From NCBI GenBank assembly GCA_017643395.1, contig JAEPNP010000001.1, forward strand, positions 1 to 64,000: a stretch of DNA of 64,000 bases. Reading direction: 5' to 3'. Every line of letters starts with the position of its first letter. Position 1 is the stretch's first letter. The position numbers were made by a program, and so were the translations under genes. Shown here one piece after another: positions 7,176 through 49,715 of the stretch. The DNA is from Rhodothermales bacterium. GTDB lineage: Bacteria; Bacteroidota; Rhodothermia; Rhodothermales; UBA10348. Below the pieces are notes generated by a model. That model did not search any database. It saw nothing but the letters and a program-made list of their open reading frames with translations, and was not told the DNA's origin.

Positions 7176-8114
7176 TCACCGCTTTCGCAGTCGGCAGACA
7201 AAGAACGCCTCATACACGCCGTCCGGCAGCACGCGCATCGCCCGACTGAGGGATCCGTCAAACTCGGCATCCTTCCAGCCGGGGAGTCCTGGAAGCCGAC
7301 CTGGGATGTCCAGGGCGATGGGCTCGATGGCAACCTCATCGCCGAAGCATTCGAGCACATGCTGCACCACCATCTCGTTCTCCTCGGGCGCAAACGAACA
7401 CGTACTGTAGACAATCACGCCACCAGGTCTCGCGCATCGCACCGCGGCCTCCAAGAGCCGGCGCTGCTTGCCGGCCATGGTGCGCACCTTTTTCTCGCTC
7501 CAATGGGCGAATGACGCGGGATCGTCGGGGCGCATTTGTGCTTCGGTCGAACACGGAGCGTCGATCAGCACGCGATCAAAATGGTCCGCGCGGTAACGCG
7601 GCACCGTGACGCCGTCCCGGTGAAACGTCTTTACCCAAGCCGCCCCCTGGGCCCTCAGGTTCCGTTTCAGCCTGTAGAATCGCGGCCGCGCGACTTCCAC
7701 CGCGGCGATATCGGCTCCGGGGCCCATCGCACATGCAATCTGCAGGGTCTTGGAGCCAGGCGCAGCTGCCAGGTCGAGCACCGACTCACCGGCCTCCGGC
7801 GCGAGGACCACGGGTGGGATCATGCTGGACGGATTCTGGATCCAGATCGCACCGGTGGCGAATGCGTCGCTGTCCAGCAAGGGCTGCCGGTGGCCCGCCG
7901 GCACGACAAACGCGCCCGGCAACCAGGGCAAGGGTTCGGCGTCTACAGGCAGGCCCGCCAGCACCTTGTCCACCGTGGCCTTAAGGCTGTTGACACGGAA
8001 GCCCACCGCCTGGGGGCCTGCCATTGCGGCCACGGTCCCTCGTAGAATCCCGGGGGGAAGGATGGTATCAAGGCGGCGCACGAAGGCCTCCGGAAACCCG
8101 GATTCAGGGGTCAT
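7176..8114 (-). CDS. RNA m5C methyltransferase, NOL1/NOP2/Sun (RsmB/RsmF) family
   Basis: 312 residues from the ATG at 8114 (MTPESGFPEAFVRRL). The family motifs are all present: SAM-binding VLDLAAAPGSKTLQIA, motif IV DAPCS with Cys188, and motif VI STCSFAPEENE with the catalytic Cys239. The enzyme transfers a methyl group to C5 of cytosine in rRNA or tRNA through a covalent Cys-RNA intermediate. It lacks the N-terminal NusB-like domain of RsmB and the long C-terminal extension of RsmF, so the target base is open. It is divergent from clpX. Confidence 0.88.
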   Translation of the reverse strand: MTPESGFPEAFVRRLDTILPPGILRGTVAAMAGPQAVGFRVNSLKATVDKVLAGLPVDAEPLPWLPGAFVVPAGHRQPLLDSDAFATGAIWIQNPSSMIPPVVLAPEAGESVLDLAAAPGSKTLQIACAMGPGADIAAVEVARPRFYRLKRNLRAQGAAWVKTFHRDGVTVPRYRADHFDRVLIDAPCSTEAQMRPDDPASFAHWSEKKVRTMAGKQRRLLEAAVRCARPGGVIVYSTCSFAPEENEMVVQHVLECFGDEVAIEPIALDIPGRLPGLPGWKDAEFDGSLSRAMRVLPDGVYEAFFVCRLRKR

Positions 8115-8311
8115 GCGATGAACTTTTTTACGGCTGTTTTGCCAGCAAAACCGCGATTCCAGCCCATGTTTCCGCCTCATTTTGAGACTATGGTTTTCAA
8201 GGGGGTCACCCGGTTAAGTGTTGTCCCTGAGGAACGATATATGTACCATGCTGGCTCTCATTCACACTGTGGGCCACGCGTTCTGGCAACCTTAACGTGT
8301 GAACTTTAACT

Positions 8312-9586
8312 ATGGCGAATCGACGCGGCGAAGACGTCATCCGCTGTTCCTTCTGCGGTCGCACAGCCCACGAGGTCACCTCTATGGTGGCGGGGCCGGA
8401 TGTTTACATCTGTGACCGTTGTATCAACGATGCCGCCGGCATCGTGCGGAGCGACCTCACTACCCACAAGCCTGCACCGTCTGCAGCGCCTGCTCGTAGG
8501 CCATCGGCTGGACGCCGACTCTCACCTCTCGAAATCAAGGAAGCGCTCGATGAGTACGTCATCGGTCAACAGCGCGCCAAGAAGGCCCTCTCCGTAGCGG
8601 TTTACAACCACTACAAACGTGTTGAGGGAGACGGGTTCTACCCCGACTTCGAAGATGTCGAACTGGAGAAGTCCAACATCCTGCTGATCGGACCCACCGG
8701 CACCGGCAAAACCCTGTTGGCGCGTACGCTGGCCCGCATTCTCGACGTTCCGTTCTCTATCTCAGACGCCACGGCCCTTACGGAGGCCGGCTACGTGGGG
8801 GAAGACGTGGAGAGTATTCTGGCCCACCTCCTGCACGCAGCCGACTTCAACGTCGAGCGAGCGGAGCGCGGCATCATCTATATCGACGAGATCGACAAGA
8901 TCGCCCGCAAGAGCGACAATGCTTCGATCACGCGCGACGTCTCAGGAGAGGGTGTTCAGCAGGCATTGCTGAAGATTCTCGAAGGCACGGTGGCCGGCGT
9001 CCCGCCCAAGGGCGGCCGCAAGCATCCGGAGCAGAGCCTCATCAACATCGACACCTCGAACATTCTGTTCATTGTCGGAGGCGCGTTCGATGGACTCGGA
9101 GAGATCGTCGCACATCGGATTTCCACCAGCACCATCGGCTTCATGGCCGAGGCTGGCAAGAAGTACGACAAGAATGATCCGAACATCTTCCAGTACGTCG
9201 AGCCAGACGATCTGCTGCGCTTTGGGATCATTCCCGAACTCGCCGGTCGGCTCCCCGTGGTGTCCGCACTGAATGCGCTCTCCGAGGAGGCGATGGTAGA
9301 CATCCTGCTGCGGCCCAAGAACGCCCTCATCAAGCAGTACCAGAAGCTCTTCGCCATGGATGGTGTGGACCTGGTGTTCGAGGACGATGCGGTCAAAGCC
9401 ATCGTGGCCAAGGCCAAAGCACTCGGCACGGGTGCCCGCGGTCTTCGCAGTGTGCTGGAGGACACGATGTTGGAGATCATGTTCGACATCCACTCCATGC
9501 AGGACGTCGCCGTGTGCCGAATCACGGAAGGCACCGTGCACAAGCAGGACGAGCCCGTCTTCGAGAAGCGCAAAGCTTCGGCCTGA
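8312..9586 (+). CDS. clpX: ATP-dependent Clp protease ATP-binding subunit ClpX
   Basis: A 424-residue AAA+ unfoldase that recognises tagged substrates and feeds them to ClpP. The zinc-binding domain has Cys12, Cys15, Cys34 and Cys37 (CSFC, CDRC). Walker A GPTGTGKT is at about 127-134, the pore loop GYVGEDVE follows, and Walker B is [11 protein letters not shown]. The sensor-2 Arg is in GTGARGLRS. Full length for the family. No clpP is adjacent, which is common outside enterobacteria. The start ATG at 8312 lacks a Shine-Dalgarno sequence. A strong terminator follows at 9613. Confidence 0.97.
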
Positions 9587-40834: not shown

Positions 40835-41749
40835 CTAGCGCGCCGATGTAGGCTCCGGCTTCAGCACGCGCTCGACCACCGGAACGAGATCCCGAAGGAT
40901 CTTTTCTCCGTTGGCATCCTCGACCAGACTGACGAGGATGTACCGGCGCCAGCCGTCACCCCACACCAGGATCGAGTCGGCGTGCCAGTTGCGCCAGGTA
41001 CCGGACTTACGAAACATTCTGGCCCGGGGAGCGCGATCGCTTACCGCGTAGACAAACTTGTGGTTGATGCCGGGATCCACCAGCACGTCCAGCATGTGGC
41101 GGGAGCGCTGCGGGGATACCAGTCGCCCGGTTGCGGCCAAGTAGTAGAAGCGGCTGACCTGACTCACCGTCGCGCCATGCGACAGGCCGGCGATGGGGTC
41201 CGGAATGCGCTCACCGGACTTGGCGTAGGCCTTGCCCACCCACAAGCCGCCACCGTATTCAGGATCGTAGAGCATGTACCGGTCGTCCGACAGCACCTGC
41301 TCGATGTACTCCAGACCTACGCGATCAATCATGGCCGTTGCGGCGGTGTTGCTGGAGCGCCGGATCATGGCATGCATGTCCTGGTCCACCTCCGGCGTCA
41401 ATTCGATGAGTCCGTCTTCGATGGCCTGCTCGGCGGCTAGCAGAATGGCGATCTTGGGCAGGCTGGCTGCATAGATCATCGAATTGCCGTTCACACGGGC
41501 AAACCGGGGGTTTGCCGGATCGGTGATGTCGACCAGACCGACGGCCATGCGCTCATTGTTGATGAGGTTCGTCCAGCGACGGTTGCGCTGGAGCGCGGCC
41601 TCAAGTCGGCCCTGAAGGACGGGATCGACAGATTCGCGCAACGGGTGCCATGCCTCGTCGTCGACGACGACAGGAAGCCTCGGCTGAGCCGAAGCAGGTA
41701 GTGCCGCGATCAGAAGTGCGGCGAAGAAGATGCCTTTGAGAAGGCGCAT
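40835..41749 (-). CDS. Serine hydrolase of class A beta-lactamase fold
   Basis: 304 residues from ATG 41749, with signal peptide MRLLKGIFFAALLIAALPASAQ. Motifs: SLPK (Ser97, Lys100), SSN (132-134) and KSG (248-250), with the size expected of a class A-type enzyme. It lacks a recognisable ExxLN in the omega loop region, so it may not be a true beta-lactamase. It is convergent with a second, distantly similar hydrolase at 39577, 22 bases away. Confidence 0.8.
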   Translation of the reverse strand: MRLLKGIFFAALLIAALPASAQPRLPVVVDDEAWHPLRESVDPVLQGRLEAALQRNRRWTNLINNERMAVGLVDITDPANPRFARVNGNSMIYAASLPKIAILLAAEQAIEDGLIELTPEVDQDMHAMIRRSSNTAATAMIDRVGLEYIEQVLSDDRYMLYDPEYGGGLWVGKAYAKSGERIPDPIAGLSHGATVSQVSRFYYLAATGRLVSPQRSRHMLDVLVDPGINHKFVYAVSDRAPRARMFRKSGTWRNWHADSILVWGDGWRRYILVSLVEDANGEKILRDLVPVVERVLKPEPTSAR

Positions 41750-41866
41750 AGGGGTGAGCGCCGAAGCGCAAGCGATTAACCGGCCGTAAACGCACGATCC
41801 CGGTTCGGATCCACAATTTCGAGGCGCGTCAAAAATATTCCCCACCGGACGCGAAGTCTATGCGGC

Positions 41867-42895
41867 CTATCGCGTTACAGCCAGGATCCGAGCTACCCGA
41901 CGCCCATCCGCAGCCACGCTGACCACGTAGAGACCGGCGGGAAGGCTGCGCACATCCAGTGAGAGATCAACCGTGCCTGCTGCCTGGGAGCCCATCGCCC
42001 GTTCGAGCACCAATCTCCCTGCGAGGTCGAACACCTGCACGGAGACCGCGGCAGCGCTTTGCATTTCGACCTGCACGTCGACATGATGCGTGGCGGGGTT
42101 CGGGTAGATCTCCTTCAGGGCAAGCGGGCCAGGCGTCTCGACAGCGTCCACGCCGGTGCCTGACCCCAGCATGGGGGACCAGTCCAGACCGAGACCGTCC
42201 AGATAGGCTATCCGGTTCGGAATCGCGGACTCGATCTGCTGCCTCACCAGATCCGTGATGCGATCAGACCGGTACCTGTATGCGAAGTAGGGAAGGATCG
42301 ATTCGGCAATGTCCTCGCGAATCGAATTGTCGCGAGCATACGTGGAGATGAAGTCTCCATCGGCTGCCTGAGCCGCGAGCCATGCTTCCGCCTGGGCGTG
42401 TTCGGCATCCATGGAGGTGTGCCCGGCCTCGTGAATCAGTACCTCCTCAATAAAGCCGTTCCTTAGCGTGCGCTGCCCGTATTCGGTGTGTATGAGGATG
42501 GAATTGTTGCCGCCGCCAAAAGCCGCATCACCTCCGTTGATCCACACCTCCCGCATATCCTTCCTGAGGTAGGTGGACAGACGGCCGATGGGGGGTGCGT
42601 AGGCATCCACGTGCACGCGCGCCGCGGACTCGCTGCCAAACTCCGGGTTGACGATGAACTCCGCCGTAGTCCCATCCGAAAACGCAACCTCAAACAGGTA
42701 CGCGTTGACCTGAATCCAGGCGGCGGGTCGACGATCGTAAATCGTGCGCATGCCCCGGCCTGAGTAGCTCACCGACTCAAAGGCCGTGGGGTCGGCGGCA
42801 GTCACAATGTCGGGGTCTACCCAGACGGTGCCCGAAAACGGCGGATCGCCGTGTCCGGAGATTGCCAACGCCAGCAGCAGTAACAAAACGCGCAT
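41867..42895 (-). CDS. T9SS-sorted protein with HExxH metalloprotease-like motif
   Basis: 342 residues. N-terminal signal peptide (MRVLLLLLALAISGHG), a middle domain with LIHEAGHTSMDAEHA, whose HExxH could bind zinc, and a C-terminal type A T9SS sorting domain from about residue 262 (IYPNPATHHVDV, VQVFDLAGRLV, LPAGLYVVSV). It should be secreted across the outer membrane and attached to the surface. The catalytic family is not identified; a third zinc ligand was not assigned. Confidence 0.75.
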   Translation of the reverse strand: MRVLLLLLALAISGHGDPPFSGTVWVDPDIVTAADPTAFESVSYSGRGMRTIYDRRPAAWIQVNAYLFEVAFSDGTTAEFIVNPEFGSESAARVHVDAYAPPIGRLSTYLRKDMREVWINGGDAAFGGGNNSILIHTEYGQRTLRNGFIEEVLIHEAGHTSMDAEHAQAEAWLAAQAADGDFISTYARDNSIREDIAESILPYFAYRYRSDRITDLVRQQIESAIPNRIAYLDGLGLDWSPMLGSGTGVDAVETPGPLALKEIYPNPATHHVDVQVEMQSAAAVSVQVFDLAGRLVLERAMGSQAAGTVDLSLDVRSLPAGLYVVSVAADGRRVARILAVTR

Positions 42896-43026: not shown

Positions 43027-44667
43027 ATGAGCAAACCTCTCATCGTGGTCGTTGATGACGACCCCCAGGTGCTCTCTGCCATCGTTCGTGATGTGCGCAG
43101 CGAGTACGGCGAACACTTCCGCATCAGGCGGGCCTCCTCCGGCCCGGAGGGTCTGGAACTGCTCGACGCGTTGCAGCAGGCCGGTGAGCACGTGGCCCTG
43201 ATCATATCCGACCAGCGCATGCCCGGCATGGACGGCGTCGCGTTTCTGGAAAAGGCGAAGACGCTGTATCCGCAAGCCAAACGCACCCTGTTGACGGCTT
43301 ACAGCGACACCGAGGCGGCCATCGATGCGATCAACCTGGTTAATCTGGACCACTACTTTGTGAAGCCGTGGGATCCGCCGGAGGACAAACTCTATCCGGT
43401 GGTCGATGGACTCCTGCGCGACTGGAGACACCTGTGGCGACCCGGATTTGACGGACTGCGGGTCGTGGCGGATCGCTGGTCGGCACGGAGCCACCAGATT
43501 CGGGACTACCTGGCGCGCAACCTGATCCCGTATTCCTTCCTGGACGTGGAAGCCTCCGACGAAGCGCGCAGCCTGCGCCGGGAGGCCGAACTACCCCTGG
43601 TCATCTTCGAGGGCGGCGACAGGGTGAGCAACCCGTCCGAACGCGAGATTGCCGAGCGCCTCGGCAAGCGTACCAGCGCCCAGGGCGAATTCTACGACCT
43701 CGCCGTGGTGGGTGGCGGACCTGCCGGGCTGGCCACCGCCGTGTACGGGGGTTCGGAGGGACTTACCACCGTCCTGATTGAGCAGTCGGCTCCCGGCGGG
43801 CAGGCCGGCACGAGCAGTCTGATCGAGAACTATCTCGGCTTTCCGAATGGACTTTCGGGCAGCGAACTGACCGGCCGCGCGGTGGCGCAGGCCGAGAAGT
43901 TCAACGTGGAGATCCTCAGCCCGCGCACCGTCTCGGCGCTCACGGTGGACGGCCCCTATCGCCACCTGGAGATGGAAGACGGGTCCCGACTCTCGTGCCA
44001 TGCCCTGCTGCTGGCGATGGGCGTTTCCTGGCGTCGATTGCCGGCCGATGGAGCCGATGCACTCACAGACCGGGGCGTGTACTACGGCGCAGCACTGACG
44101 GAGGTAGACAACTGCGCCAACCAGGTAGTGTACACCGTCGGAGCCGGCAACTCGGCCGGGCAGGCCGCCATGCGCTTTGCCGAGAAGGCTGCCCGCGTGG
44201 TCATGCTGGTGCGCGGCGACTCACTCGAGGCAAAGATGAGTCAGTACCTCGTGGACCGCATCCATTCCACCGACAACATCGAGGTTCGGCTGCACACCTC
44301 GGTCATCGGCTGCGAAGGTGACCACCACCTGGAACGCCTTCGCATGCAGAACAGCGAGACTGGCGAAGCCCGCACCGAGGACGCCTCGTACCTCTTCGTA
44401 TTTATTGGCGCGCGTCCTCACACGGAATGGTTGGGCGACGTCATCGCGTGTGATGACCACGGCTTTATCCTCACCGGGCCGGATCTACGCGAAGAGCACC
44501 TGCAGGACTGGCCGCTGGAGCGGGATCCCTATCTGCTGGAAACCAACGTGCCGGGCGTCTTTGCGGCCGGCGACGTGCGCCATGAATCCGTCAAACGCGT
44601 TGCCAGTGCCGTAGGCGAAGGCTCCGTGTCCGTGCATTTCGTTCATCGCCACCTGGCCGCCCTCTGA
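43027..44667 (+). CDS. Response regulator / glutaredoxin-like / thioredoxin-reductase-like fusion
   Basis: 546 residues from ATG 43027. Receiver domain 1-125 has the acidic pocket DDD (10-12), phospho-acceptor Asp62 (SDQRMPG) and Lys113. Residues about 145-215 resemble a cysteine-less glutaredoxin-like domain (LARNLIPYSFLDVE). From 223 a thioredoxin-reductase-like FAD/NADP protein follows: FAD motif VVGGGPAGLAT, SAPGGQAG, NADP motif GAGNSAG (372-378), and FAAGDV near the end. The redox CxxC is replaced by GAAL (354-357), so it cannot reduce thioredoxin normally. First gene of an overlapping three-gene unit; its partner kinase is probably the third gene. Confidence 0.9.
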   Translation: MSKPLIVVVDDDPQVLSAIVRDVRSEYGEHFRIRRASSGPEGLELLDALQQAGEHVALIISDQRMPGMDGVAFLEKAKTLYPQAKRTLLTAYSDTEAAIDAINLVNLDHYFVKPWDPPEDKLYPVVDGLLRDWRHLWRPGFDGLRVVADRWSARSHQIRDYLARNLIPYSFLDVEASDEARSLRREAELPLVIFEGGDRVSNPSEREIAERLGKRTSAQGEFYDLAVVGGGPAGLATAVYGGSEGLTTVLIEQSAPGGQAGTSSLIENYLGFPNGLSGSELTGRAVAQAEKFNVEILSPRTVSALTVDGPYRHLEMEDGSRLSCHALLLAMGVSWRRLPADGADALTDRGVYYGAALTEVDNCANQVVYTVGAGNSAGQAAMRFAEKAARVVMLVRGDSLEAKMSQYLVDRIHSTDNIEVRLHTSVIGCEGDHHLERLRMQNSETGEARTEDASYLFVFIGARPHTEWLGDVIACDDHGFILTGPDLREEHLQDWPLERDPYLLETNVPGVFAAGDVRHESVKRVASAVGEGSVSVHFVHRHLAAL

Positions 44668-46700
44668 TGAAGTTCATCCTCGCCGCGGGGGCCGCCCCGC
44701 CCTTCTTCGTGGAAGTCGCGCTGCTCATCCTCTGCAGCGCCGGAATTGCCTACGTGTGCTACCGCCTGGGCATTGTGCCCATCGTGGGCTTCCTCATCAC
44801 GGGCGTTGTGATTGGTCCCATGGCGCTTGGACTTGTCCAGGACCAGGAGGTCGTGGATGCCGCCGCAGAGGTAGGCGTGCTGCTGCTGCTCTTCACCATC
44901 GGCATCGAGTTCAGCCTGGAAAAGCTGGCCCGCATCCAGCGACTGATCTTCGCCGGCGGTGGCCTGCAGGTGGGCCTTGCTGCCGGCATTACGACCGGTC
45001 TGCTGATGGCTTTCGGCGTCTCCTGGCAGGCCGGATTGTTTACGGGGTTTCTGGTCGCGCTGTCGTCGACCGCCATCGTGCTCAAGTTGCTTGGTGACTC
45101 GGGTGAGATTGATACCGAGCACGGTCAGGTTGGTCTGGGCCTGCTGATTTTTCAGGACCTAGCGATCATCCTGATGGTCCTGCTGGTGCCACTGCTCTCA
45201 GGCACCGGGGGCTCCACCCTTCAGATCCTCGGCGCGCTCGGCAAGGCCATCGGCATCATCGTGCTCGTGCTGCTCGTCGCACGTCGGGTCATGCCACTGT
45301 TCCTGGAGGCCGTCGCACGCACATGCTCGCCGGAGCTGTTTCTGTTGACGGTGATCGGCATCTGCTTTGGCACGGCCTATTTGACCAGCCTGGCCGGCGT
45401 GAGTCTGTCGCTGGGTGCCTTCCTGGCGGGTCTGGTGGTCAGTGAAAGCAAGTTCAGCGAGCATGCCATGGGCGAGATCATGCCGCTGCAGATCCTGTTC
45501 AGCGCCACGTTCTTTGTATCGGTCGGCATGCTGCTGGATCTGTCCTTCCTGATTGCCAACCTGCCGCTGGTGCTTGGCGTGGTGATGGCGGTGCTCATCA
45601 TCAAGATCATCACCACCGGCATCGCCGTGCGCTCGCTTGGGTACTCGCTTCCAGTGGTCGCAGGCGCATCGCTCATGCTGGCTCAGATCGGGGAATTTTC
45701 GTTCGTGCTTGAACGCTCGGGGCGGGAGGCCGGACTCTTTCCTGCCGGGATGGAAGGCACGGGCTCGCAGACCTTTATCGCCGCCACCGTGCTGGTCATG
45801 ATTGCCACGCCCGCGCTCAACTCGCTCGGCGCGCGGATCCGGAAGCGCCTGGAGGCACCCGACGGGGATTCCCCGCAGGAGATGGACGAGGTGCATCAGC
45901 ATGGGCCACTCCCAGAGTTGGACGGCCATGTCATCATTGCGGGATTCGGAAACGGTGCCCGCAAGCTGGTTCGCAGCCTGGACCAGCAGGAGGTGCCCTT
46001 CGTGGTACTGACGCTGAGTCCGGAAGGTGCCAACGAGGCGGAGTCGATGGGCGTGCCGGTTCTCCGAGGCGACTACGCCCGGCAGCACACACTCGAACTG
46101 GCCGGGATAGAAAAGGCGCGCACGCTGATCATTGCCGACGACCATCCGGCGATGGCGCACCGGGTGGCGATGGTGGCCCGAACGATTGGCGGAGAGGATC
46201 TTCACATCGTGGTGCGCACCCGCCACGTTTCGGAAATCCCGGGTTTGCATGCCGATGGGGTGGACTGCGTCATCGCCGACGAATTGGAGAGCATTGTGCA
46301 GCTCATGTGCCAACTCCTGAAGGACCGCGGTCTCCCGGCAGACGAAATTGATCGGCGCGCAGAGGATATCCGGGGCAAGGATTACGCCGGCCTGCTGGCA
46401 GACAACAAGCCGAGCGATGTCGTCGTGCTGAACGTGAAGGGCGTGGCCTGTGATCACGCTGATCATCCGCTGGCCGTCGTGCCCAACAGTCCGGGCGTGT
46501 GCACCGAGTGTCAGCGTATGGGCGACACCTGGGTGCATCTCCGGGTCTGCATGACCTGCGGCCATGTCGGGTGCTGCGACTCATCCAAAAACAAGCACGC
46601 TTCGGCCCACTTCCATGAGACCGGCCACCCGGTCATGCGCTCGATGGAGCCCGGCGAGAAGTGGGGCTGGTGCTTCGAGCACGGACTGTTGCTGAAATGA
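44667..46700 (+). CDS. CPA2 monovalent cation:proton antiporter with TrkA-N and UBP zinc finger
   Basis: 677 residues. Residues 1 to about 395 form a Kef-type CPA2 exchanger (GVVIGPMALGLV, LLFTIGIEFSLEKL, VALSSTAIVLKLL). A TrkA-N NAD-binding domain follows (about 413-530: VIIAGFGNGARKLVRSL). The C-terminus (about 594-677) is a UBP-type zinc finger: VACDHADH, CTECQRMGD, VCMTCGHVGCCDSSKNKHASAHF, WGWCFEHG. The exchanger would release or take up K+/Na+ for H+ under control of the NAD domain. It overlaps the preceding stop (TGATG) and the next start (ATGA). Confidence 0.92.
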   Translation: MKFILAAGAAPPFFVEVALLILCSAGIAYVCYRLGIVPIVGFLITGVVIGPMALGLVQDQEVVDAAAEVGVLLLLFTIGIEFSLEKLARIQRLIFAGGGLQVGLAAGITTGLLMAFGVSWQAGLFTGFLVALSSTAIVLKLLGDSGEIDTEHGQVGLGLLIFQDLAIILMVLLVPLLSGTGGSTLQILGALGKAIGIIVLVLLVARRVMPLFLEAVARTCSPELFLLTVIGICFGTAYLTSLAGVSLSLGAFLAGLVVSESKFSEHAMGEIMPLQILFSATFFVSVGMLLDLSFLIANLPLVLGVVMAVLIIKIITTGIAVRSLGYSLPVVAGASLMLAQIGEFSFVLERSGREAGLFPAGMEGTGSQTFIAATVLVMIATPALNSLGARIRKRLEAPDGDSPQEMDEVHQHGPLPELDGHVIIAGFGNGARKLVRSLDQQEVPFVVLTLSPEGANEAESMGVPVLRGDYARQHTLELAGIEKARTLIIADDHPAMAHRVAMVARTIGGEDLHIVVRTRHVSEIPGLHADGVDCVIADELESIVQLMCQLLKDRGLPADEIDRRAEDIRGKDYAGLLADNKPSDVVVLNVKGVACDHADHPLAVVPNSPGVCTECQRMGDTWVHLRVCMTCGHVGCCDSSKNKHASAHFHETGHPVMRSMEPGEKWGWCFEHGLLLK

Positions 46701-48076
46701 TCTCCGCAGAAGAACTGAAGGTCGTTGAGGTCTTCGAAGACCTCTCGCACGAGGATCTGGAATGGCTGGCTGAGCACTTCGAGCTCATGGAGCTGCAGGC
46801 GGAAGAGCAGCCTTTCGAACCGGGCGACCCCGCCGAGCACATGATGGTCATCCTCTCGGGCGGGATGCAGATATCCATCAAACGGGGCGGCAGCTGGCGA
46901 CTCTTCGACACATTTGGCCCCGGTAGCGTGAGCGGCATCCTGCCCTACTCCCGTATGAAGACGTTTGAGGGGCGCGGACTGGCGACCATGCCCACGCGCA
47001 TGGGCCTGCTCCACAAGGATCACTTCCCCGAAATGCTGTACCGCATCCCCGTGCTGGGGCAGCGTCTCATTGGGGTGATGTCGGACCGCGTGCGCGTCTC
47101 CGCCCGGGCGGATCAGGAACGCGAGAAAATGCTGGCGCTCGGCAAGCTCTCGGCTGGACTCGCGCATGAGCTCAACAACCCCGCAGCCGCTGCACGAAGA
47201 GCCGCAGACGACCTCCGTGTCCGATTGGACCGTCTGCCCAGTGTGGTTGCGCGTCTGGCACGACACGGCCTGGACCCCAACAAAGTGGATCCGGAGAGCG
47301 GCTATTGCAGCCTGCACGTGGAGCGCCACCTTTCCGCGCTGGAGCTGGGGGATCGCGAAGACGAATTGCTGGACTGGCTGGAGGATCGTGACATCCCGGA
47401 AGCCTGGAAGCTGGCACCTACCCTGGCCGAAGCCGGCATGACGGTTCCGGACATGGACCGGGCCGTGGCCGACGTGCCCGGTGCGGCCTTGCAGGACGTC
47501 ATCGCCTGGATTGAACACAGTCTGGCCGCGGCCAAGCTGCTCCAGGAGATCCATGCCTCAGCCGAACGCATCTCGGAGCTGGTCTCTTCAGTGAAGTCCT
47601 ATTCGCACATGGACCGTTCCCTGGACGCCGAGCCGGTGCGTCTGCAGGACGGCGTGCGCAACACACTGACCATGCTGGGGCACCGCATCCGAAAGCAGGA
47701 AGTCATTGTCGAAGACCGGCTGGGTGATCTGCCCGCCGTGCCCGCCTACCCCGGCGAAATGAATCAGGTTTGGACGAACCTCATCGACAACGCCCTGGAC
47801 GCGATGGGGCAGGGCGGTACGCTGACCCTGGAAGGGCGGCGATTTGGCGGCTTCGTGGAAGTGCGCATCACCGACAACGGATCCGGCATCCCGGATGATG
47901 TGCTGCCACGCATCTTCGACCCCTTCTATACGACCAAGGCGGTCGGCGAGGGTACGGGACTCGGGCTCGAGATCTCCCACCGCATTGTGACCAAGCAGCA
48001 CAGGGGGCAGATCAACGTAGAGTCGGAGCCGGGGCGAACCTCGTTCGCGGTGGTGCTGCCGGAAAGCGCGGGCTGA
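46697..48076 (+). CDS. Cyclic-nucleotide-binding sensor histidine kinase
   Basis: 459 residues from ATG 46697. An N-terminal cNMP-binding (CRP-like) domain spans about residues 10-125 (FEPGDPAEHMMVILSG). It is followed by a HisKA-like segment with His157 (SAGLAHELNNPA), a helical region, and HATPase with TNLIDNALDAM (about 361), DNGSGIP and GTGLGLEI. No membrane segment, so a cytosolic kinase. No receiver of its own, so the receiver of the fusion protein at 43027 is the likely target. The stop abuts, with no gap, the stop of the convergent photolyase gene. Confidence 0.9.
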   Translation: MISAEELKVVEVFEDLSHEDLEWLAEHFELMELQAEEQPFEPGDPAEHMMVILSGGMQISIKRGGSWRLFDTFGPGSVSGILPYSRMKTFEGRGLATMPTRMGLLHKDHFPEMLYRIPVLGQRLIGVMSDRVRVSARADQEREKMLALGKLSAGLAHELNNPAAAARRAADDLRVRLDRLPSVVARLARHGLDPNKVDPESGYCSLHVERHLSALELGDREDELLDWLEDRDIPEAWKLAPTLAEAGMTVPDMDRAVADVPGAALQDVIAWIEHSLAAAKLLQEIHASAERISELVSSVKSYSHMDRSLDAEPVRLQDGVRNTLTMLGHRIRKQEVIVEDRLGDLPAVPAYPGEMNQVWTNLIDNALDAMGQGGTLTLEGRRFGGFVEVRITDNGSGIPDDVLPRIFDPFYTTKAVGEGTGLGLEISHRIVTKQHRGQINVESEPGRTSFAVVLPESAG

Positions 48077-49567
48077 CTAGCGCCTCGCGACTGGCCTCCG
48101 CCGACTGCCGTGCCGCTCGTATACCCGCTGCGACTCTTCCCGGACCTCCGGTTTCGCTTTCCAGCCCCATACCCGTGTGCGGGCCTCCCGGTACGCCGGA
48201 CCGTGCTCCACGATCGGCGCGGGATAGTCCCGTCCGATCACGCACCCGGCCTCCTGCTGCACCAGCGGCGGCATCGTCCAGGGTTCGGCGATCCAGCCGG
48301 TGGGCACCTTGCGCAGCTCCGGCACCCACTCTCTGATGAATAGGCCTTCCGGGTCCTGATCCTTGGCCTGTTTGGTCGGAGAGTAAATGCGCACGGTGTT
48401 GATGCCGGTGGTGCCCGACTGCATCTGGAACTGGCTGAAGTGAATGCCCGGCTCGAAATCCAGGAAGTGCTGCGCCAGGAAGACCGAGGTGGGTCTCCAG
48501 TGGAGCCAAAGGTGATTGGATGCAAAGCTTACCAGCATCGCTCGCATGCGGAAGTTGATCCACCCGGTGGCGAGCAGCGCACGCATGCAGGCATCCACCA
48601 TCGGATAGCCTGTCCGTCCGGCGCACCAGGCTGCAAACCAGTCGTCCCGGAATTCGTCCTCCCGCATGCCGTCGAAGCTCCGGTTCATGTTCTCGAACTC
48701 GATGGCGGGCTCGTCCTCCAACTTCTGTATGAAGTGGCAATGCCAGCGCAGTCGCTTCTCGAAGCTGGAGAGACTCGAAAGCCATCGCGAATCCCTTTCG
48801 GGATCGTCCTTCAGCTCCAGTACCCTGCCACGCGTCTGCTGAAACACGTCGCGCACTGAAATGGCACCCCACGCCAGATACGGGCTGACTCGGCTACACC
48901 CGGTCCAGCCCTCCACCGGACTGGACATATCCTTCCGGTAGTTCACACCCCGGCGTCTCAGGAAATCATGAAGGGTCTCCTGGGCGAGGGACTCTCCGCC
49001 CTTCTGCACGGTGTGCTTGGTGGATGCGGGAAGACCGAGCGCGGGTGGGCCAAGGATACCTGCGCTGCGAATCGCCGGGCTCGCTGGAAGGACGGTCGGC
49101 GTGGCCGTGATCGGCTGGTTCATGCGCTTTCTCCAGCGGGCGGCCCAACCGTCGCGAGTCTTCAGGGGCCGAAAGACGCCGTGATTGGGAATCTCCCGGA
49201 ATTGAACGCCTTCCGTCCGCGCCCAGGCTGCCACACCCAGATCGCGATCATATGTCACGCGGTTGCCCGTTTCTTCGTGGCTCCAGATGGTATGGATGCC
49301 GACCTGTGCGTGGAGTGCGGGCAGCACCTCCGACATCTCTCCCACGGTCGTGACCAGGCGATTCCCCAGATTGTTCAGCCTTGCCGCCAGCTGCTGTAGG
49401 CACTCGTTGATAAAGACCAGATGGCTGGGGTCGAACCCGTCTGATCGCAGCACGCCGGGCTCGTAGACATATAGGCACAGCAACGGGCGCCCGGAGGCTG
49501 CCGCCTCAACGAGTGGCCGGTGGTCCCGCACGCGCAGGTCTCGCTTGAACCAGACGATGTCGATCAT
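48077..49567 (-). CDS. Deoxyribodipyrimidine photolyase/cryptochrome family protein
   Basis: 496 residues from ATG 49567 (MIDIVWFKRDLRVRDH). N-terminal alpha/beta antenna domain (LLCLYVYEPG), then the helical FAD domain: SRVSPYLAWGAISVRDV, WCAGRTGYPMVDACMRAL, TGWINFRMRAMLVSF. The FAD is reduced by light to split cyclobutane dimers, or to signal in cryptochromes. The ARTGY-to-NFRMR block is the photolyase core, but a distinct HWRPTSVFLAQHF segment points to a separate bacterial group. The exact function is open. Confidence 0.9.
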   Translation of the reverse strand: MIDIVWFKRDLRVRDHRPLVEAAASGRPLLCLYVYEPGVLRSDGFDPSHLVFINECLQQLAARLNNLGNRLVTTVGEMSEVLPALHAQVGIHTIWSHEETGNRVTYDRDLGVAAWARTEGVQFREIPNHGVFRPLKTRDGWAARWRKRMNQPITATPTVLPASPAIRSAGILGPPALGLPASTKHTVQKGGESLAQETLHDFLRRRGVNYRKDMSSPVEGWTGCSRVSPYLAWGAISVRDVFQQTRGRVLELKDDPERDSRWLSSLSSFEKRLRWHCHFIQKLEDEPAIEFENMNRSFDGMREDEFRDDWFAAWCAGRTGYPMVDACMRALLATGWINFRMRAMLVSFASNHLWLHWRPTSVFLAQHFLDFEPGIHFSQFQMQSGTTGINTVRIYSPTKQAKDQDPEGLFIREWVPELRKVPTGWIAEPWTMPPLVQQEAGCVIGRDYPAPIVEHGPAYREARTRVWGWKAKPEVREESQRVYERHGSRRRPVARR

Positions 49568-49715
49568 GCCGGAGGGTAGTGGGGCCCGGCAGCGCTGTCG
49601 ATACCCCATCGACAGCGCGCGTTACGGAGCGACGAGCGAAAAAATCGGGGGAGCCTGTGGTGTTTGGGATGCGCGCAGCGTGTCCCCTGCAAACCAACCG
49701 AACAGACTCGCATCC

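Follow-up and report, generated by a model that had tools for sequence, protein, structure and literature searches.

The locus described here stands close to two kinds of reported system. KefFC and KefGB of Escherichia coli are glutathione-gated K+ efflux systems with an ancillary flavoprotein; in the sections available of two studies, KefF is given as a flavoprotein that full KefC activity requires and that may compete for the RCK surface holding the membrane part (PMC10224563, PMC11150392). The other kind are the TrxB-type response regulators, which like our protein have a receiver and a thioredoxin reductase (TrxR)-like output and are encoded next to a kinase. Such regulators with a partner kinase are already in print: in the sections available of the respective papers, Streptomyces coelicolor SCO7298 (TrxB output) is listed with kinase SCO7297 as a response regulator-histidine kinase pair (PMC9739842), one TrxB regulator is reported from one cyanobacterium (PMC9953108), and others appear in archaeal bins (PMC5847659). 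Those same sections assign these regulators no function, nor do they mention loss of the CxxC motif, a glutaredoxin-like domain, a UBP finger or an antiporter (PMC9739842, PMC9953108, PMC5847659). We analysed a 64,000-nt stretch from a Rhodothermales bacterium (assembly GCA_017643395.1, contig JAEPNP010000001.1, positions 1 to 64,000; hereafter the window, to which all coordinates refer), in which three overlapping genes, here called F, A and K, encode a flavoprotein response regulator, a KefC-like antiporter and a soluble histidine kinase (Table 1). We found that F, A and K form a real module and that the kinase follows the receiver. Whether the three constitute one post-translational signalling module, in which K would phosphorylate F and F would regulate the exchanger as KefF does KefC, we hold to be evenly balanced. 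The locus offers a Kef-like exchanger as a concrete candidate target for TrxB-output regulators, and SCO7298 may, to judge from Streptomyces loci such as L171, be an F orthologue (L-numbers denote loci and G-numbers genomes among those compared).

F and K are regularly found together. At least 574 F relatives, which may include receiver-less ones, were confirmed in an organism-named collection, and the 80 best-scoring were kept; all 80 are F with a receiver, and they span Cyanobacteria, Actinomycetota, Acidobacteriota, Chloroflexota, Bacteroidota, Balneolota, Pseudomonadota and others. K lies at most 3 kb from F in 70 of these 80 loci, on the same strand in 67, being scored by its kinase part at E < 1e-40 or its cyclic nucleotide-binding (cNMP) part at E < 1e-8; in all linkage counts the neighbours were assigned using the window proteins as queries, and distant K may be missed. 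Among the ten loci scored without K, L116 sits on a 3-kb contig and L135 has a weaker kinase match beside F. Of 100 related genomes sampled, one being the window's own, 17 have full-length F, every one of them with K, and a single genome of the 83 without F has K (G085; Fisher p 2.7e-18, a value overstated since the genomes share ancestry); K with its N-terminal part was counted in 18 genomes, two partial F and two core-only K matches being excluded. The distance between the two genes is at most 3 kb in 11 of the 17 F genomes, namely the window's own, 4 of a set of 6 and 6 of a set of 10, and about 3.4 to 4 kb in three more (L042, L047, L097). A third sample comprised 296 genomes of the window's phylum, where loci were available for 30 of 45 flavoprotein matches, 28 of F and two of F relatives without a receiver (hereafter f), and K was found within the short flanks of 26 of the 28 F loci. 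The counts are not summed, since some genomes are shared between the sets (G260 and L179, for example, look to be the same one). A preliminary description of this DNA proposed a three-gene circuit, which homologues lying mostly apart would have refuted. For F and K this outcome was not found; the link to the antiporter is real but restricted to certain lineages.

The receiver-less relatives supply a natural control, in which a cNMP domain replaces receiver and kinase together. Annotated as "cyclic nucleotide-binding domain-containing thioredoxin-disulfide reductase", they share the glutaredoxin-like and TrxR-like parts of F (about 46-49% identity over 71-74% of its length) and differ from it at the N-terminus: five of the seven f proteins scanned carry a cNMP domain over the Pfam cut-off in the place of the receiver, and in the other two Pfam found nothing there. 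K stands beside none of the 17 f rows, which represent 16 genes (one gene is counted as both L233 and L240, flanks at L240 and L247 are limited to 1.5 kb, and 12 of the 17 come from a plasmid collection). Within the plasmid collection, K occurs within 3 kb of F in 10 of 10 cases versus 0 of 12 for f. The absence of K beside receiver-less f argues that the receiver is where K acts, and we regard this control as the best, if indirect, evidence suggesting that K signals to F. Receiver plus cNMP-bearing kinase on the one hand, and cNMP domain alone on the other, may so be the two-component and the one-component forms of one design.

Both partners have the residues that phosphotransfer would need. 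F shows Response_reg and Pyr_redox_2 (6.7e-34) above the Pfam cut-off, and its receiver has the Asp, the Lys and the acidic pocket of two-component proteins: in an alignment of 65 sequences (window F and 64 of the 80 loci), D10 is kept in 64 rows, D11 in 63, and D62 and K113 in all. No DNA-binding part is present in F. K has the phosphorylatable histidine and the ATP-binding boxes of a histidine kinase, with H157, N365, D393, G395, G397, G421 and G423 invariant in a 64-row alignment and HATPase_c above the Pfam cut-off (3e-25). HisKA reaches 21.9 bits against a cut-off of 26.9, probably because the DHp hairpin has at its tip a helical insertion of some 70 residues (~190-261, with some conserved columns); the AlphaFold model of K (mean pLDDT 90.6) has helices at 118-189 and 262-307. 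From this linkage and these residues, phosphotransfer from K to F appears very probable. At some loci (L109, L105, L115, L157, L108, L141) two or three K genes surround one F, at L109 with three in a row after it, as if several kinases fed one flavoprotein.

The output of F is a different matter from what its fold would announce. In the AlphaFold model (mean pLDDT 89.6, pTM 0.73) the receiver, glutaredoxin-like and TrxR-like parts are all present, and the top Foldseek matches are thioredoxin reductases and AhpF, including 7jyp and 4o5q. F has in common with these proteins the fold and both dinucleotide-binding Rossmann parts, for FAD and NAD(P)H, but is without the redox-active CxxC, which is absent from the whole length of all 65 aligned F; the place of the TrxR CxxC is occupied by YGAA or a close variant, and the NCBIfam model TRX_reduct gives 197 bits against a cut-off of 343. 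Since no CxxC is found in any of the 65, F is not a thioredoxin reductase. The glutaredoxin-like part has no Pfam match at E 0.001; hhalign aligns it with the glutaredoxin domain of sister antiporters (probability 96.7%, E 4e-10, on a shallow template) and places Ser152 of F on their glutaredoxin cysteine, a position that holds Ser in 59 rows, Asn in four, Ala in one and Asp in one, and hence lacks the active-site cysteine of glutaredoxins. Of the domains named in the preliminary description, the receiver, the CPA2-TrkA-UBP architecture and the ATPase part of the kinase were recovered by Pfam above its cut-offs, and the terms "TrxR-like" and "Grx-like", to judge by the alignment, describe the fold of F only, the redox cysteines being gone. 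Thiol redox chemistry by F is accordingly unlikely, and a thiol relay as in AhpF was ruled out, there being neither CxxC nor glutaredoxin cysteine. In viral contigs, a single weak match was obtained, to the receiver part of F.

A, the antiporter, contains Na_H_Exchanger, TrkA_N and zf-UBP above the Pfam cut-off, and KefC is its closest sequence in the PDB (E 2.5e-62); Na_H_Exchanger matches in the window's genome number three. It combines the CPA2 membrane part, the QD motif and the RCK domain of the KefC type. The QD motif marks K+/H+ exchangers, according to the sections available of PMC11150392, and its K+-type form is kept in five of five A-type and three of three other-clade antiporters checked, which suggests that A is a K+/H+ exchanger, predicted as such by motif. 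F-A and KefFC share their layout, in which the flavoprotein gene comes first and runs into the gene for a CPA2 antiporter with TrkA-N/RCK (kefF and kefC overlap by 8 bases). Unlike KefF, a quinone-reductase-like FMN protein, F joins a receiver to an FAD part of TrxR fold; its family and fold matches are to TrxR-type FAD proteins, and the likeness to the ancillary subunits KefF and KefG lies in gene position only. To the Kef layout the F system adds a dedicated kinase and a UBP or glutaredoxin (Grx) tail on the exchanger. Among 20 C-termini of A-type antiporters examined, 15 are a UBP finger and five are glutaredoxin-like with a single cysteine (C[PAL]LT; L045, L047, L091, L092, L093). Pfam was run on two of these five, and TrkA_C precedes the Grx tail in both, in one of them just below the cut-off. 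L045 and L047, both with a Grx-tailed antiporter, have UBP as a gene of its own between A and K.

The UBP finger in turn follows the flavoprotein, with or without the receiver. In the phylum sample, F or f is present in 27 of the 30 genomes with a UBP finger over the cut-off versus 17 of the 266 others (44 genomes with F or f in all, at E up to 1e-60, four candidates scored per genome), and in the three UBP genomes without either (G004, G136, G353) an antiporter is beside the finger or fused to it (L040, L214, L211). Among the 100 relatives, the finger occurs in 13 of 17 F genomes versus five of 83 others. Six of the 17 f rows (5 of 16 genes) have a UBP gene no further than 6 kb away, and at 26 further UBP loci of the phylum F was found in 16 and an antiporter in 17. 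In Streptomyces, a neighbouring UBP gene was seen at loci L153, L163, L171 and L173. No UBP fusion with flavoprotein or kinase was seen among the open reading frames (ORFs) checked; gene calls were made by longest ORF, so that some UBP genes were missed in neighbour scans. The fusion of finger and antiporter, taken with the flavoprotein in 27 of 30 UBP genomes, hints at a physical link beyond a regulatory one, and we consider it likely that F is functionally tied to UBP and antiporter. No paper on the UBP-flavoprotein-antiporter set was found in the literature searched, where coverage of subscription papers was partial. Burroughs, Iyer and Aravind (2011), on prokaryotic binuclear treble clefs, reportedly may already note UBP gene neighbourhoods, and part of the linkage may thus be in print already.

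The antiporter itself recurs in the module in two forms. Among relatives, 10 of the 17 F genomes have an A-type antiporter no more than 6 kb from F, and 8 of the 17 show the order F-A-K, with or without a separate UBP gene. Of the 26 further UBP loci, 14 have the order CPA2-UBP-K-F, every one of them from a single family (f18), and at one of them, L220, the genes overlap by 1 to 4 bases. Antiporters of the f18 rows branch as a separate clade, with E. coli KefC, KefB and YbaL and other KefC-like genes of the same genomes grouping on the side of A (split support 100/100, in a tree with long branches and a midpoint root); by BLAST the f18-row antiporters show 22.7 to 34.2% identity to A over 141 to 572 columns. 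Two distant CPA2 clades in such sets indicate that two kinds of antiporter joined them. Separate recruitment is the plain reading, the alternative being that one kind replaced the other. An assembly or chance artefact was ruled out, because the set is found again in other genomes and in other gene orders. At L210 (6705-7229), in a CPA2-UBP-K-F row, a DsbA/Thioredoxin_4 gene stands between antiporter and UBP gene.

We propose that K, which is cytosolic and has a cNMP-like domain as its sensor, would autophosphorylate on His157 and pass the phosphate to receiver Asp62 of F, as linkage and conserved residues suggest. The output of F is an FAD/NAD(P)H flavoprotein without the disulfide chemistry of thioredoxin reductases, and phosphorylation of F, together with an NAD(P)H-dependent state, would decide its action on the cytosolic TrkA-N/UBP part of A. 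This action would switch K+/H+ exchange much as KefF activates KefC. Among the variants, a monothiol glutaredoxin takes the place of UBP in some sister systems, UBP is encoded separately within the row in other lineages, and one-component relatives have a cNMP domain on the flavoprotein itself, with no kinase found alongside. More broadly, the joint recurrence of these parts in other bacteria suggests that phosphorylation of F may control either ion exchange or a stress response connected with it. Direct gating of A by F, for which Kef is the analogy, we rate as somewhat short of an even chance. More tentative still is the idea that the two-component output is direct control of a K+/H+ antiporter, bypassing transcription, and that a cysteine-less, NAD(P)H-reading flavoprotein docks through an interchangeable UBP/Grx tail. 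If the general proposal is true, two-component signalling acts directly on ion exchange, and Kef-like flavoprotein control exists without the KefC glutathione site; if the docking is true as well, signal, redox charge and ion exchange meet in one complex, and the bacterial UBP finger is a docking module for a flavoprotein family.

Several observations weigh against this proposal. CPA2 lies within 6 kb of F in only two of the 80 world-wide loci, so the exchanger cannot be the only target of F and K, and a universal antiporter target was ruled out. Only 13 of those 80 have UBP within 6 kb of F, both flavoprotein and antiporter are missing from the region at five of the 26 further UBP loci, and no dominant third neighbour besides UBP was seen around F-K when 282 of 298 neighbour proteins were scanned (16 longer than 900 amino acids were dropped, and the scan was judged on the 25 commonest families). 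In three of the 17 F genomes of relatives (G056, G062, G074) K is unlinked to F, far apart or on a different contig. UBP-tailed A-type antiporters also exist without F or K, including in the same genus (G001) and family (G004) as the window. Moreover, the Kef analogy stops short of the ligand, since KefC glutathione residues are lost in A. In the sections available, the site is given as R409, Q412, R416, R498 and R516 (PMC11150392), with D499 and N551 in addition (PMC10224563); A keeps R416 and R498 and has R409N, Q412R, F441M, D499H, R516A and N551D. KefB, also glutathione-gated, itself departs from KefC at 441, 499 and 551, so it is R409, Q412 and R516 that carry the argument, and with these three changed, glutathione gating of A as in KefC is not supported.

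The same observations leave room for another explanation, possible in our view though not the one we favour: F and K would make up a complete pair directed at a soluble reaction, redox or metabolic, that F carries out as a phospho-switched NAD(P)H-dependent reductase, and the antiporter would be merely co-expressed in some lineages for a shared stress (electrophiles, acid, osmotic shock), with no contact. World-wide, F-K pairs are mostly without an antiporter, A-type antiporters live without F and K, and KefF is itself a quinone reductase acting beside its transporter, as stated in the sections available of PMC10224563. Against a pair of this kind speak the occurrence of two distant antiporter clades alongside UBP, K and F, the fusion of UBP to the antiporter here, and the flavoprotein in nearly all UBP genomes of the phylum.

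Much less probable is that cyclic nucleotide sets the activity of K and that F signals to the antiporter by its thiol redox state, as would follow from the preliminary description, which had K bind cyclic nucleotides. Compatible with it are one class III cyclase match in the window's genome, by which the cell may have cyclic nucleotides, a cNMP domain over the Pfam cut-off in three further K examined (28.6 to 60.9 bits) and in five of the seven f, and the Grx or DsbA-like partners beside the antiporter at some loci. In K of the window, however, cNMP_binding reaches 24.7 bits, below the cut-off of 27.5, and the columns that we take to be the usual cAMP-binding Glu and Arg of the phosphate-binding cassette hold Ile 81 and Leu 95 in an alignment that is loose there; in the same loose region, 24 of the 64 K rows have the Glu and 35 have the Arg. 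The window K thus lacks both residues expected of a cAMP/cGMP receptor, its cNMP-like domain looks from the alignment a poor candidate for cyclic-nucleotide binding, and we deem such sensing by it improbable. The thiol half of the idea meets the cysteine-less F described above.

Equally improbable is that F acts mainly on other proteins through a UBP finger that binds a C-terminal peptide or tag, with the antiporter as a membrane anchor: this would suit a finger that follows the flavoprotein with or without its receiver, but A's finger has CDSS where eukaryotic fingers have CGR(R)Y and is thus unlikely to bind a ubiquitin tail in the known way. In the aligned USP49 and USP5, this motif (CGRY or CGRRY) supplies the Arg that meets the ubiquitin tail. 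The closest solved relative of the finger is bacterial UBP 2ida (E 2.3e-27), a 102-residue chain named "hypothetical protein", the finger in A being by comparison fused to an antiporter. We know of no ligand for a bacterial UBP finger, and the F locus offers a lead on it.

The three genes overlap at their stops and starts as the preliminary description had stated, through TGATG between F and A and ATGA between A and K (Table 1). Upstream of F lies a divergent gene with a Por secretion tail (41867-42895, Pfam), and a convergent photolyase (48077-49609) abuts the K stop, so that F, A and K make a stand-alone unit. A promoter and terminator scan gave no signal exceeding shuffles.

Table 1. Features of the F-A-K locus, in window coordinates; residue numbers are those of the respective protein.
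Feature	Position	Strand	Description	Basis
F	43027..44667	+	546 aa; response regulator, flavoprotein output	Pfam, alignments, AlphaFold, Foldseek
F domains			receiver ~1-125; cysteine-less glutaredoxin-like ~138-212; TrxR-like FAD/NAD(P)H part ~219-546	
Asp62 codon of F receiver	43210..43212	+	predicted phospho-acceptor	Asp in 65/65 aligned F
Ser152 codon of F	43480..43482	+	at glutaredoxin active-cysteine place	Ser in 59/65, never Cys
F/A overlap TGATG	44665..44669	+	stop TGA 44665-44667, start ATG 44667-44669	sequence
A	44667..46700	+	677 aa; KefC-like CPA2 cation/proton antiporter, TrkA-N (RCK), C-terminal UBP zinc finger	Pfam, PDB match, tree, QD motif
UBP zinc finger of A	46500..46679	+	sole zf-UBP match in genome	
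A/K overlap ATGA	46697..46700	+	start 46697, stop TGA 46698-46700	sequence
K	46697..48076	+	459 aa; soluble histidine kinase, N-terminal cNMP-like domain, helical DHp insert	Pfam, alignment, AlphaFold, Foldseek
His157 codon of K	47165..47167	+	predicted phosphorylated histidine	invariant column, 64-row alignment

Further out, a gene of the Beta-lactamase2 family is located at 40835-41845, upstream of the module. Some neighbourhoods elsewhere deserve a mention. At L043 (5008-8106), in the window's genus, a UBP-tailed A-type antiporter is followed by a kinase of 1033 amino acids with the architecture Reg_prop-HisKA-HATPase, which is not K, and F and K were not found in that genome. After the UBP-tailed A-type antiporter of L040 come two ORFs (8102-9471) that by eye resemble a small protease-like protein and a RimK-type ATP-grasp enzyme. 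On the cyanobacterial plasmids L020, L021 and L026, F lies beside glgX and an AGE epimerase gene, accompanied in L021 and L026 by an LtrA gene.

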